The notes below the pieces were generated by a model. The model ran no database searches and was not told the origin of the DNA. It was given only the letters and a program-made list of their open reading frames with translations. A DNA stretch of 64,000 nucleotides from Dictyobacter kobayashii. GTDB lineage: Bacteria; Chloroflexota; Ktedonobacteria; Ktedonobacterales; Ktedonobacteraceae. The stretch is taken from positions 4,402,001 to 4,466,000 of the forward strand of contig NZ_BIFS01000001.1 in the NCBI RefSeq assembly GCF_003967555.1, in the 5' to 3' direction. The position numbers and the translations under genes were made by a program. This document shows positions 42,077 through 48,377 of the stretch, one piece after another; positions within the stretch are counted from its first letter, which is position 1, and the number at the start of each line of letters is the position of its first letter.

Positions 42077-43381
42077 ATGCAAACATTATCAGAGGATCAA
42101 CTGGTTGGCCATGTTCTCGGGCAATATCGCATAGAGAGATTGGTCGGTAAGGGACGTTTAAATATTGTATATCTGGCGCGGCATCAGGTAGCGCAACGTG
42201 TTGATGCTCTTGCACTCTATCCTATGCCGACGCATTTTTCAAACGAGGCTCGTACTTTTTTTCTGCAGCGTTTCCATAAGGAAGCAGCCTTAATTACCTC
42301 GTTACATCACCCACATATTTTGCCTGTGTATGAGCATGGCGAGATACTTGGCTATCCCTATTTGATTACACCCTATACAACGAATGGCTCTCTGGCAGAT
42401 ATCGTTAAGCATCAAGGACGCTGCGATCATACATTTGTAACTACTATTTTACATCAAATAGTAGATGGCCTGGCTTATGCCCATGGTAAAGGTTTTATCC
42501 ATGGTACATTGAAGCCTTCAAACATTGTGATTTATGATGATGAGAATGTACAGGTAGCTGGCTTTGGTCTGATGCATATTTTACAGCGTGCAGGCGTTGA
42601 TCAAACTCCCATGCCTAATGCTCACCTATTCAGCATTGCCGATACTTTTCTTGCCTCTCCCGAGTATGTCGCACCTGAGATTGTGCAGGGCCAATCGGTG
42701 GACCAGCGTTCAGATATATATGCTCTGGGTTGTATTTTGTATGAGTTACTGAGTGGAAAACCTCCATTTACAGGCAATAATCCACTTGAAGTGGCTCAGA
42801 TGCATGTCAACCAGAACTTTACACCTTTACGCAAGCTCTGCCCGGAAATCCCTGTTGCTCTAGGTTCGGTTATTAGTCAGGCGCTGACCCGTGATCCAGA
42901 TGGCCGTTTCCAGAGTGTACGTGAGTTAGGTGAGGCTTTTACCCAGGCCTCTATCGGCGCGACCCAGACCTTGCCAGCAGTACATATGAGCCAGGTGTCT
43001 AAAGCTCCGGCCGCGCCAGCCGTACCTTTTCAAGCTGCTCCACGTATTAGTACTGCTACTGGTAGCTGGCAATTAGTACCGCCTATTGTTACTGGCCATC
43101 TGCCTGCAATAAAGACAACTAAAACGGGATTGGTTGTGCCTGCGGACCGCAACACCGCATCGACTCCTCGCGCCTCTCAACCTGCAACAGGTTTGACCCA
43201 GGCCGCCTCACTGGGCAGAAAGAGCCAGGCGCTCGGCAGCAGTCCTGTCCAGCCAACGCTACCGCCTATAGCGCCGCAGCAGCCGCCTGTAATGCCGCAG
43301 CAGAAAGCCGCTCCTGCTCCTGCTCCTACGAAACGCCAGCTGGCTGATGAAGATATTGTACAGTTACCACCTCCGGGGTAA
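42077..43381 (+). CDS. Ser/Thr pseudokinase (probably N-terminal part of a pseudokinase-Rieske protein)
   Basis: Residues 18-285 have the Hanks-type kinase fold, with LVGKGRLNIVYLAR, the alpha-C Glu (HKEA), RSDIYALGCILYELLSGKPPF and a C-lobe arginine. All three catalytic residues are missing: the VAIK Lys region reads DALALY (43-48), HRD reads HGT (142-144) and DFG reads GFG (162-164). It is therefore a pseudokinase by motif. A Pro/Ala/Gln-rich linker follows. The stop at 43379 comes right after a GGGG; one extra G would read through as VTLAGTHASDADLVK into the Rieske frame. ATG 42077 has GGAG 8 nt upstream. Confidence 0.85.
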   Translation: MQTLSEDQLVGHVLGQYRIERLVGKGRLNIVYLARHQVAQRVDALALYPMPTHFSNEARTFFLQRFHKEAALITSLHHPHILPVYEHGEILGYPYLITPYTTNGSLADIVKHQGRCDHTFVTTILHQIVDGLAYAHGKGFIHGTLKPSNIVIYDDENVQVAGFGLMHILQRAGVDQTPMPNAHLFSIADTFLASPEYVAPEIVQGQSVDQRSDIYALGCILYELLSGKPPFTGNNPLEVAQMHVNQNFTPLRKLCPEIPVALGSVISQALTRDPDGRFQSVRELGEAFTQASIGATQTLPAVHMSQVSKAPAAPAVPFQAAPRISTATGSWQLVPPIVTGHLPAIKTTKTGLVVPADRNTASTPRASQPATGLTQAASLGRKSQALGSSPVQPTLPPIAPQQPPVMPQQKAAPAPAPTKRQLADEDIVQLPPPG

Positions 43382-43416
43382 CGCTCGCGGGAACTCATGC
43401 ATCAGATGCTGATCTG

Positions 43417-44244
43417 GTGAAAGCTTATGAATGGTGGTCACCAGCAGAGCCATTGCAGGCCGCCCCACAGACGTTCTCTAAGCAGGCTCAAAATAATAAC
43501 GCACCCACTGTGGCAGAACCAGTGGTGGGCGGCAGAATGGATGCCCTGGATTGGGGATTGGATGCCTCGGCGTCCTCCTCTAAGCCGCTGCAAAAGAAAA
43601 AGCGTAGCTCTACCTCTTCTCTGGGGCAGCCGGGCCGTAAGGTGACGCGACGCAATGTGATCGCCGTGCTGGCTACAGGTGCCGTCGCTGCCGCGGGTGT
43701 GGGTATCGCTTTTAACCTTGGCAAGCTAGGAGCAGCGCCTGCCCCGCAACAGGCTTTACAACAAACCGCCCCTACCACTAAGCCTGCAGCTAATAAGACG
43801 ACACAAACGAAGCAGCAACCAGCAAAGAATACTGGCCAGACGCAGAAGCAACCACCTAAGACCAATGGTGGCACGACCAATCAACCACCTGCTAATAATC
43901 CGAAGCCAACACAGGCTCCTCAACAGCCTGCGCACATGGGAACGGTGATTGGATCACAAACTCAGGCGGTTAATTCGGCCATTAAATTTAATAATCCTGC
44001 CGATAATCAGGCAAGCTTGCTGGTTCATTTATCCAGTGGCATGTTTGCAGCCTATGAGCAAGCCTGTACCCATGAAGGAGTCAAAGTCAACTATGACCCG
44101 GGTACCGGCAAGCTAGTCTGCCCTGCGCATGGGGCGATCTTCGATCCTGCTAATGGTGGACAGGTGTTACAGGGGCCCGCTGATACCCCCTTGCCACCCG
44201 TTAAGATCAATGTGAATGGTGATGGTACAATCACTGCTGTGTAG
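43417..44244 (+). CDS. Rieske [2Fe-2S] domain protein with membrane anchor
   Basis: Listed as 275 aa from a GTG that lacks any Shine-Dalgarno; open protein-like sequence continues upstream to the end of the pseudokinase, so it is probably the C-terminal half of that protein. A basic KKKR-rich stretch is followed by VTRRNVIAVLATGAVAAAGVGIAF (given here in part), a single membrane segment or Tat-like signal near residues 73-100. After a Thr/Gln/Pro linker comes the Rieske fold with ligands C217-x-H219 (CTHEG) and C235-x2-H238 (CPAHG). No partner cytochrome is nearby. Confidence 0.85.
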   Translation: MKAYEWWSPAEPLQAAPQTFSKQAQNNNAPTVAEPVVGGRMDALDWGLDASASSSKPLQKKKRSSTSSLGQPGRKVTRRNVIAVLATGAVAAAGVGIAFNLGKLGAAPAPQQALQQTAPTTKPAANKTTQTKQQPAKNTGQTQKQPPKTNGGTTNQPPANNPKPTQAPQQPAHMGTVIGSQTQAVNSAIKFNNPADNQASLLVHLSSGMFAAYEQACTHEGVKVNYDPGTGKLVCPAHGAIFDPANGGQVLQGPADTPLPPVKINVNGDGTITAV

Positions 44245-44251
44245 AATTAGT

Positions 44252-44309
44252 ATAAAAGAAGAGCGGCGGCCTGGTGAAAAATTTCGCCAGGCCACCGCTC
44301 TTCTTTTAT
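44252..44309. terminator. Strong bidirectional terminator
   Basis: 25-bp stem with two mismatches, 44252-44276 with 44285-44309, GAAAA-type loop, A/T-rich ends on both sides. It separates the Rieske gene from the convergent YbjN-like gene. Confidence 0.85.
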
Positions 44310-44317
44310 CTTTAGAG

Positions 44318-44953
44318 CTATTCCTGATGTTTTCCCAGCAGGCGTGCAACCTCTTCCAGTACTTCGTTTACGTCAAGCTCAGATTCTTCCATCTGTAGCA
44401 TTTCATTGTTAGTTGATGTCTCGACTACTTGTGTCTGTATAGCTGGCAGGCTAAAATCGGTTTCATCATGGGTCTGGGCAAAGAACTCATTTTCACAATC
44501 TTGCAACGCATCCTTTGCGGATTGATGGCCATAGATAATTCTAGGCAATAAGTCATGATAGATTGAAACGGTCTGCATGATAGCGCTAAAAGCCAGGCGA
44601 AACTGCTCAAATGGAATGCTTTTATCAGCCAGAGGAATACATTCTTCTAGCCGCACCTCTCCATCAGCGAGATCCAGGCCAAATTTTCCAAGAGCAATGC
44701 GATAATTGACAGCAAGTAATGCTTCGAGACACTCCAGACGTTTTTGCTCGGTGACCGTGCCGATGTGCGGCACAATGAGCATCAGCTTACTGGCATTTCC
44801 ACTGTGGTGAATACCTACAATCATCTGCCACTGCCCATGTTCATCATGGAAGGCCAGCTCGATTGTATTCTGAGAGCGATCAACCTGTGAAATCTTTAAC
44901 CCCAGTCGCTTCAGATATTCAGCCACCTGGAGGATGCTAAAGCTATTTGTCAT
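44318..44953 (-). CDS. YbjN/type III chaperone-like protein
   Basis: 211 aa soluble acidic protein. The pattern of a short helix (VAEYLKRLG), beta strands and the stretch LLAVNYRIALGKFGLDLADGEVRLE followed by a helical IPFEQFRLAFSAIMQTV matches YbjN-like proteins with a secretion-chaperone fold. The last 65 residues are Glu-rich and unassigned. AAGGAGAG precedes the ATG. Function unknown; in other bacteria YbjN affects stress responses, which cannot be assumed here. Confidence 0.65.
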   Translation of the reverse strand: MTNSFSILQVAEYLKRLGLKISQVDRSQNTIELAFHDEHGQWQMIVGIHHSGNASKLMLIVPHIGTVTEQKRLECLEALLAVNYRIALGKFGLDLADGEVRLEECIPLADKSIPFEQFRLAFSAIMQTVSIYHDLLPRIIYGHQSAKDALQDCENEFFAQTHDETDFSLPAIQTQVVETSTNNEMLQMEESELDVNEVLEEVARLLGKHQE

Positions 44954-46655: not shown

Positions 46656-48377
46656 GTGGCTGCAAGTAGGGGACAGCATCTTATCGGGAAGGTGCTCGGT
46701 TCGTGTGTGTTGGAAAGAGTACTTGGCTATGGTGGCTCAAGTGCAGTTTTTCTTGCTCAGCAGCAAAATCCTGCGCGGAAGGTAGCTGTGAAGGTGTTTC
46801 TACCGCGATCAGGTATGGATATACGGATGCAGCGAGATTTCTATCGCCGTTTCTTACGAGAAGCAGAAGCGGTCAGTAAATTGGAGCATGCAAATATCCT
46901 ACCAATTTTTTCGTATGGTGAGCAGGATGGTTTGCCATATATTGTGATGCCCTATATGCCAGGTGGAACTCTGGCGGAATATATGGCTAAGCGTGGCCCA
47001 CTCTCTTTAAAGGAAGCTCAGTGGTACCTTGAACAACTGGCGGCGGCCCTGGATTTTGCCCATATGCATGGTTGTGTCCACTGTGATGTTAAACCTGCTA
47101 ATATTCTATTGGATAGTGATGGCCATGTCATCTTATCCGATTTTGGTATTGCTCGGGTTGCGCAATCTGAAATAGAACCAGAGCAAAGCGAGGCTAAACA
47201 TGCTGAGGCGGTTATGGGGACTCCAGATTACATCTCGCCTGAGCAGGCCCTGGGACGTGTCTTAGATGGTCGTTCCGATGTCTATTCGCTGGGGGTTACC
47301 CTCTTTTTTGTTCTGGCTAAGCGCTTACCATTTCGAGCCGATTCAACGATTGCGCTGGCATTGTTGCATGTGCATGAGCCCCCTCCATCCCTGGCGTTGA
47401 TTCGAGCTGATATTACGCCTCTGTTGGATCGAGTGGTACGCAAAGCCCTGGCTAAAGAGCCTGAAGACCGTTTTCAAACGGCACAGGAATTAAGTCGAGC
47501 TTTTTCAGCGGCGGTAGTTGCCAGTGAGACTCGCTCAGCCACCCTGAGCCCCTCTGCGCTTGCCCTTTTTGATGAAAAAGAGGATCACACCAATCCACCG
47601 CCTATTATTGCTAGTCCTCGTCCTATTGTACGTGTCAAACCTATGTGGGCCAGCACATGGCCTGGCTTCCAGCTAAGACGATTGCTTTACATTCTGGCTG
47701 CTTTGATCATTATCGTGGTTACCACAGGTTTTACCGTATCCTTTATGAATCGGCATCCTGAAGCACCCCAGACGGTGGTGGTAATACCCACAGCCACTCC
47801 GACGCAGGCCCCTATGCCCACGAATCCTTTCACGATCATTGGAAATTGGCCGCATGGAGCAAATGCTTTTTTTGATCAGAACCACCAGTATCATATTATT
47901 AATAACCAGCTTAACAATGCCATGCCAGCGCCTTTTCAGGATTACCAGGTACAGGATTTCAAGTTATCTGTAACGATGCTTGAGACGTCCAGCAAAAAAG
48001 ATAGTCCTGATTATCATGGAGTGATTTTTCGGGTTGCTCCAGATCAATCGTTTTACTATCTCTTTGAGATTTCACCACGGGACAATCAACAGTACGCCTT
48101 TTTGCGTTTCTCCAGTACGGATAAGCAGCAACCCTGGCGAACGATCAAAAGTAATAGAAGTTCAGCTATTATCAGTGAGGATGGAAAAAGCAATACGATC
48201 ACGATAGAATCTCGTGGCAACACTTTTCTCTTCACAGTTAACGGCGTACCTTTGCTAGATAAGCCCATTACTGATCCTTTTACAACTGAGGTGAAGTCCG
48301 GCCAGATCGGGCTCTACGTGGAAAATCAGGGTGAGGAAGTTACCTTCTCCAGGCTCTACGTTGAAACCCTCAAATAA
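46656..48377 (+). CDS. Receptor-like Ser/Thr protein kinase (PASTA-less, lectin-like ectodomain)
   Basis: 573 aa, active Hanks-type kinase by motif: GYGGSSAVF glycine loop, Lys46 in VAVKV, HCDVKPAN (Asp144), SDFGIAR (Asp162), GTPDYISPEQ activation loop. A membrane segment at about 345-368 follows the kinase domain, then a Pro/Thr linker and an extracellular beta-sandwich domain (FKLSVTMLETSS, YHGVIFRVAP, TITIESRGNTFLFTVNG) of the concanavalin-like type, similar in style to the end of the propeller protein at 34986. It may sense a surface ligand. GTG start with GGAG 7 nt upstream. Confidence 0.92.
   Translation: MAASRGQHLIGKVLGSCVLERVLGYGGSSAVFLAQQQNPARKVAVKVFLPRSGMDIRMQRDFYRRFLREAEAVSKLEHANILPIFSYGEQDGLPYIVMPYMPGGTLAEYMAKRGPLSLKEAQWYLEQLAAALDFAHMHGCVHCDVKPANILLDSDGHVILSDFGIARVAQSEIEPEQSEAKHAEAVMGTPDYISPEQALGRVLDGRSDVYSLGVTLFFVLAKRLPFRADSTIALALLHVHEPPPSLALIRADITPLLDRVVRKALAKEPEDRFQTAQELSRAFSAAVVASETRSATLSPSALALFDEKEDHTNPPPIIASPRPIVRVKPMWASTWPGFQLRRLLYILAALIIIVVTTGFTVSFMNRHPEAPQTVVVIPTATPTQAPMPTNPFTIIGNWPHGANAFFDQNHQYHIINNQLNNAMPAPFQDYQVQDFKLSVTMLETSSKKDSPDYHGVIFRVAPDQSFYYLFEISPRDNQQYAFLRFSSTDKQQPWRTIKSNRSSAIISEDGKSNTITIESRGNTFLFTVNGVPLLDKPITDPFTTEVKSGQIGLYVENQGEEVTFSRLYVETLK

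Follow-up and report, generated by a model that had tools for sequence, protein, structure and literature searches.

We found that a pseudokinase domain, a membrane segment and a Rieske domain are joined in one gene in Ktedonobacteria, and on sequence evidence this is a genuine fusion and a conserved family, because its orthologues are continuous in one frame. The gene analysed here lies on contig 1 of the two-contig, 8.85-Mb genome of Dictyobacter kobayashii, in a window of 64,000 nucleotides (contig 1:4402001-4466000). The anatomy of the family, a single gene with a dead kinase and a Rieske domain, appears nearly certain. The explanation that we favour, in which the window gene is one member of this conserved single-gene membrane-protein family and encodes an envelope redox-sensing receptor with a scaffolding or steering pseudokinase, has about an even chance of being right.

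The locus is read as two open frames in the present assembly (Table 1). ORF1 runs from ATG 42077, with GGAGAGAG upstream, to TAA 43379-43381 and encodes 434 amino acids. ORF2 contains a linker, a Tat-like RR and hydrophobic segment, a Pro/Gln/Thr-rich linker and a Rieske [2Fe-2S] domain, in that order, and its earliest in-frame start is GTG 43417, before which no Shine-Dalgarno-like sequence was visible when the sequence was inspected by eye. A preliminary description had placed a membrane segment and an intact Rieske site in the -1 frame without a ribosome-binding site, which our analysis bore out, and had proposed that one extra G in the GGGG before the stop would give a single protein of 720 residues. 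The single protein was supported, but its length is 722 residues (434 + 288), and alignment with two relatives allowed the indel to lie anywhere in about 43368-43378, with no requirement for the GGGG. Between the Rieske gene and the convergent minus-strand neighbour, self-matching revealed a palindromic stretch (44253-44309), perhaps a two-way terminator; a promoter and terminator scan of 43300-44400 gave no signal above chance and lists no terminator there.

Table 1 Features of the pseudokinase-Rieske locus, with positions in the window unless a contig is named
Feature	Position	Strand	Remark
ORF1: PknB-like pseudokinase domain (aa 1-300) and Pro/Gln-rich linker	42077..43381	+	Stops at apparent frameshift
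Apparent break into the -1 frame, most likely through an indel in the assembly	43368..43381	+	D. aurantiacus orthologue continuous here
ORF2: same gene continued, -1 frame	43378..44244 (coding to 44241)	+	288 residues
RRNVIAVLATGAVAAAGVGIAFNL: invariant Arg-Arg and sole strong hydrophobic stretch	43648..43719	+	Predicted N-in/C-out, Tat-type signal anchor
Rieske domain, ligands CTH...CPAH	43936..44241	+	PF00355; model pLDDT about 85-98
Neighbour: intact Ser/Thr kinase with C-terminal 3-keto-disaccharide-hydrolase-like domain	46656..48377	+	Candidate partner (inferred)
Second pseudokinase-Rieske copy (L065)	contig 2:925701-927467		Out-of-frame patch in N-lobe

A continuous gene in related genomes, which the preliminary description had advised seeking, was found. 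Single frames were observed in the closest named relative, Dictyobacter aurantiacus S27 (Chloroflexota, Ktedonobacteria; 695 aa), in D. arantiisoli (753 aa) and in Tengunoibacter (696 aa), and the other single-frame orthologues and paralogues were mostly of 536-784 aa. A profile search of 47 Ktedonobacteria genomes, with a match threshold of E 1e-150 or better, gave matches in 24 of them: 24 of the 29 genomes of one family and 0 of the 18 from other families. Among the 35 class matches listed, 31 run to the end of the profile and four, including the window gene, stop early. Thirty of the 31 full-length matches are free of stops, and the exception is this genome's other copy, located on contig 2, whose N-lobe contains a brief out-of-frame patch that holds two TGA. 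In a scan of 84,980 species with one genome per species, for which 80 of 107 confirmed loci were compared, all the kinase-plus-Rieske loci came from Ktedonobacteria, and in the 49 remaining loci of these 80 (L144-L192) no kinase match was accompanied by a Rieske-like motif in the same frame.

The kinase half has the features of a bacterial Ser/Thr pseudokinase, namely a kinase fold with loss of the VAIK Lys, the HRD Asp and the DFG Asp. ORF1 matched Pkinase (PF00069) with 138.2 bits, its AlphaFold2 model had a mean pLDDT of 88.5, and the top Foldseek match of this model was M. tuberculosis PknB (2e-22); the score against NF033483 (PASTA kinase PknB/Stk1) was 217.1 bits, far below the curated cut-off of 450. 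The three missing residues had been reported in the preliminary description, and we confirmed their replacement in the window gene by Ala, Thr and Gly, respectively. In the assessable rows of the family, the VAIK Lys was present in 0 of 33 and the HRD Asp and DFG Asp each in 0 of 34, and the usual motifs were VALT, HG[TA]LKPxN and GFG. The HRD His, the APE Glu and the F-helix Asp were each retained in 34/34, and the catalytic Asn (30/34) and the Lys of KPxN (26/34) were mostly kept. This residue table has gaps for L063, whose kinase part is off the contig, and omits L034 and L069-L072; L061, for which the Rieske motif applied gave no match, was at no point part of it. All three catalytic residues were present in the control kinases, both in 14/14 neighbour kinases and in the 17/17 alignable kinases of D. 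aurantiacus (30 loci fetched, L193-L222, 13 of them without an alignable domain), in a control alignment in which four genes occur as pairs, one sequence from each of two sources.

A tree of 65 kinase domains united the 34 pseudokinase rows in one group with support of 100/100, which was recovered in 100% of 200 bootstrap trees (midpoint rooting served for drawing only), and in this tree the pseudokinase-Rieske family is of single origin. Between the window gene and its D. aurantiacus orthologue, dN/dS was 0.055 for the kinase domain and 0.19 for the part of ORF2 before the Rieske domain; for the Rieske domain dS was saturated, and pN/pS was 0.21. The kinase domain is probably catalytically dead family-wide and should not transfer phosphate. 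The retained fold and the constraint point to a non-catalytic role of the pseudokinase, but it may still bind nucleotide or have some non-canonical activity, because the catalytic Asn and the KPxN Lys are mostly retained.

Each of the 29 members considered has exactly one clear hydrophobic segment, and the positive side precedes it. In the RRNVIAVLATGAVAAAGVGIAFNL segment, R11 and R12 are invariant in 25/25 members and the mean Kyte-Doolittle value is 2.27, so that a twin arginine is followed by a moderately hydrophobic stretch, as in Tat-type sequences. In Tat-exported Rieske proteins, an RR-hydrophobic segment precedes the Rieske domain. We infer an N-in, C-out Tat-type anchor, with the kinase predicted to be cytosolic and the Rieske domain extracytoplasmic.

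The Rieske domain was recognized in ORF2 with 37.9 bits against PF00355 (cut-off 20.3). The CxH...CxxH ligands lie within a Rieske fold, as expected of a Rieske protein; they are intact as CTH..CPAH in the window gene, and the cluster ligands are invariant in 25/25 members. By sequence the domain is closest to QcrA/AioB and by fold to AioB and PetC3, with Foldseek matches of its model to arsenite oxidase AioB (1.7e-7) and to PetC3, the Rieske protein of the Synechocystis plasma membrane (TMt 0.83). The disulfide Cys pair is absent in 30/30 members, the H-bonding Tyr is replaced by Phe in 30/30 and the Ser by Ala in 27/30, and the domain thus falls outside the high-potential Rieske proteins of the bc1/b6f type, which combine disulfide Cys with Ser/Tyr hydrogen bonds. 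The absence of the disulfide cysteines and of the H-bonding Tyr suggests a putative [2Fe-2S] cluster of a non-bc1 kind. High potentials in bc1 proteins have been ascribed to the disulfide and the Ser/Tyr bonds, and arsenite oxidase is reported to follow these rules only partly (PMC3758308). A redox potential lower than that of bc1 Rieske proteins would be expected here, as an expectation only, since arsenite oxidase obeys the rules only in part.

Comparisons with known systems placed the two halves near different relatives. PknB-type PASTA receptor kinases share with the family a kinase fold inside, one membrane pass and an extracytoplasmic sensor domain, but the family lacks the catalytic residues and a C-terminal Rieske domain takes the place of PASTA. 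MviN of M. tuberculosis (ActPs3) is likewise a transmembrane protein with a cytosolic pseudokinase, and it is comparable in having VALT for VAIK, with Thr for Lys in most members here; its membrane part is different and it has no Rieske domain. In PMC12599244, the MviN pseudokinase is a scaffold that recruits FhaA once phosphorylated by PknB, and ActPs3 is characterized by a degraded HRD motif and deletion of part of the activation loop. The family departs from ActPs3 in this respect, as it keeps the HRD His and the APE Glu throughout its 34 rows and KPxN largely. By analogy, MviN is the nearest functional model for the pseudokinase-Rieske protein. The same review describes DLHK pseudokinases, of which a P. 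aeruginosa entry with AVLT and GFG resembles the family, as retaining the HRD Asp and lacking transmembrane regions (PMC12599244); with the HRD Asp in 0/34 members, the family is not of this type.

For the Rieske half, AioB, QcrA and PetC3 have the same fold and CTH..CPxH ligands, but the family differs from them by the lack of disulfide cysteines, by Phe at the Tyr position and by the pseudokinase in front. Four fusions from the same order, Ktedonobacterales (L069-L072), whose membrane part we take to be DoxX, combine an RR-hydrophobic segment with a related Rieske domain; unlike the family, they have a DoxX-like membrane part and no kinase, and their Rieske domains have CTHxGC..CPCH ligands and the disulfide cysteines in 4/4. 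It is possible that such a DoxX-Rieske fusion was the donor of the Rieske half. The combination of a DoxX-like part, RR and a disulfide-type Rieske domain was observed in several families of the order, and also in this genome at contig 1:4363724-4364128.

The neighbour kinase lies about 4.5 kb downstream of the start of the pseudokinase-Rieske gene, is kept beside it in several genera and retains its catalytic residues in all 14 of the loci with an aligned full-length copy; no copy was found next to the diverged pseudokinase-Rieske paralogues (L132-L138, L142, L143). It belongs to a broader conserved syntenic block, whose members are presumably a HEAT-like protein, an FAD oxidase, a DUF1015-like protein, a YbjN-like protein and an M29-like peptidase. 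Because the whole block is syntenic, adjacency is weak evidence of partnership, and the neighbour kinase as a partner of the pseudokinase is a lead. The neighbours were also considered as a clue to a pathway, and the block, while conserved, gives no clear function. Directly after the pseudokinase-Rieske gene, a small protein of 91-97 aa with a hydrophobic segment was found in nine loci (L116, L117, L118, L126, L128, L129, L131, L139 and L140), and no comparable small ORF of at least 90 aa in this position was clustered from Dictyobacter.

The strongest rival to the receptor treats the Rieske domain as a functional carrier of electrons outside the cytoplasm, like that of arsenite oxidase or the bc1-type complexes, and reduces the pseudokinase to an anchor or a handle for assembly or regulation. 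The structural proximity to AioB and PetC3, the sequence proximity to QcrA/AioB, the retention of all cluster ligands and the occurrence of respiratory-looking DoxX-Rieske fusions in the same order would agree with this. The lack of the disulfide pair and the Tyr and Ser substitutions do not, and neither does the strong purifying selection on the kinase fold; moreover, inspection of the conserved neighbours by eye revealed neither a cytochrome b nor a molybdopterin partner gene. We give this explanation roughly one chance in four.

The frame break itself is most likely an assembly indel and not biology, because the same assembly splits other conserved genes, thrB and thrC among them. When 400 kb of this genome (contig 1:4346001-4746000) were compared with 400 kb around the D. 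aurantiacus orthologue, clean frame splits were found in 30 of the 209 conserved genes here (at least 70% identity, 80% covered), with 33 split junctions, that of the pseudokinase-Rieske gene included; in the reverse comparison 8/231 D. aurantiacus genes were split, and these include gene pairs already counted in the first direction. Genes split here and whole in D. aurantiacus included those for homoserine kinase (thrB) and threonine synthase (thrC), both assignments exceeding curated cut-offs, and for a CDC48-type ATPase. The out-of-frame patch in the second pseudokinase-Rieske copy likewise favours errors in this assembly. A run of at least four identical bases occurred in 18 of the 33 junction contexts, a raw figure from a hand count without a control. 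Given this proportion of split genes, other split genes in the window and the assembly are best regarded as potential errors of assembly and not as biology.

A true frameshift mutation, making the gene a pseudogene in this strain within a family functional elsewhere, would account for the break in the assembly, and the D. vulcani orthologue is broken too, at two other places; but the frequent breaks in the same assembly, even in thrB and thrC, and the otherwise open and constrained state of both halves make it improbable. Programmed -1 frameshifting at the GGGG before the TAA, yielding both the pseudokinase alone and the fusion, was rejected as more improbable still: the four-G run immediately 5' of the stop permits a P-site slip, but inspection of the sequence found no canonical in-frame slippery heptamer, the downstream RNA fold is unremarkable rather than stable (z = +0.33), and the site is not conserved, the D. 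aurantiacus orthologue having neither a stop nor a G run there. That the two open frames of the window are independent genes, for which the preliminary description expected separate orthologues with their own starts, was dismissed as having next to no chance, since orthologues are single frames, none was seen as two genes with own starts (the D. vulcani split lying elsewhere) and ORF2 lacks a start bearing a visible ribosome-binding site.

Returning to the redox-sensing receptor, the function that we ascribe to the pseudokinase-Rieske protein has at best an even chance and perhaps slightly less. The Rieske domain would acquire its cluster in the cytosol, and the internal RR signal would direct the folded domain into Tat export, with the pseudokinase staying inside. 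The redox state or the occupancy of the cluster may then alter the conformation or dimerisation of the receptor, and the pseudokinase may serve active Ser/Thr kinases, of which the neighbour kinase is one candidate, as a scaffold or an allosteric partner. More speculative, and rather unlikely as a whole, is a class of pseudokinase receptors gated by an iron-sulfur cluster, which would have arisen once in Ktedonobacteria before being duplicated and whose extracytoplasmic Rieske domain would report envelope redox to many active Ser/Thr kinases.

Bacterial transmembrane pseudokinases are known as a kind, and the frameshift contributes nothing new. No published description of a pseudokinase-Rieske family was found in our literature searches, and a word search of the main text of a 2025 review of bacterial pseudokinases revealed no Rieske, Chloroflexi or Ktedonobacter case (PMC12599244). 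Within the literature searched, the joining of a transmembrane pseudokinase to a Rieske domain is apparently a previously unreported pairing. That review characterizes bacterial pseudokinases as for the most part unexplored by experiment (PMC12599244). Here, a conserved family of single origin has lost all three catalytic motifs in organisms whose genomes each give about 100 kinase-domain matches (100 in D. aurantiacus), and its dead kinase is linked to a cofactor, the putative [2Fe-2S] cluster, whose state is readable by EPR. If the signalling function is true, a single protein would make it possible to measure redox input as well as what a dead kinase contributes.
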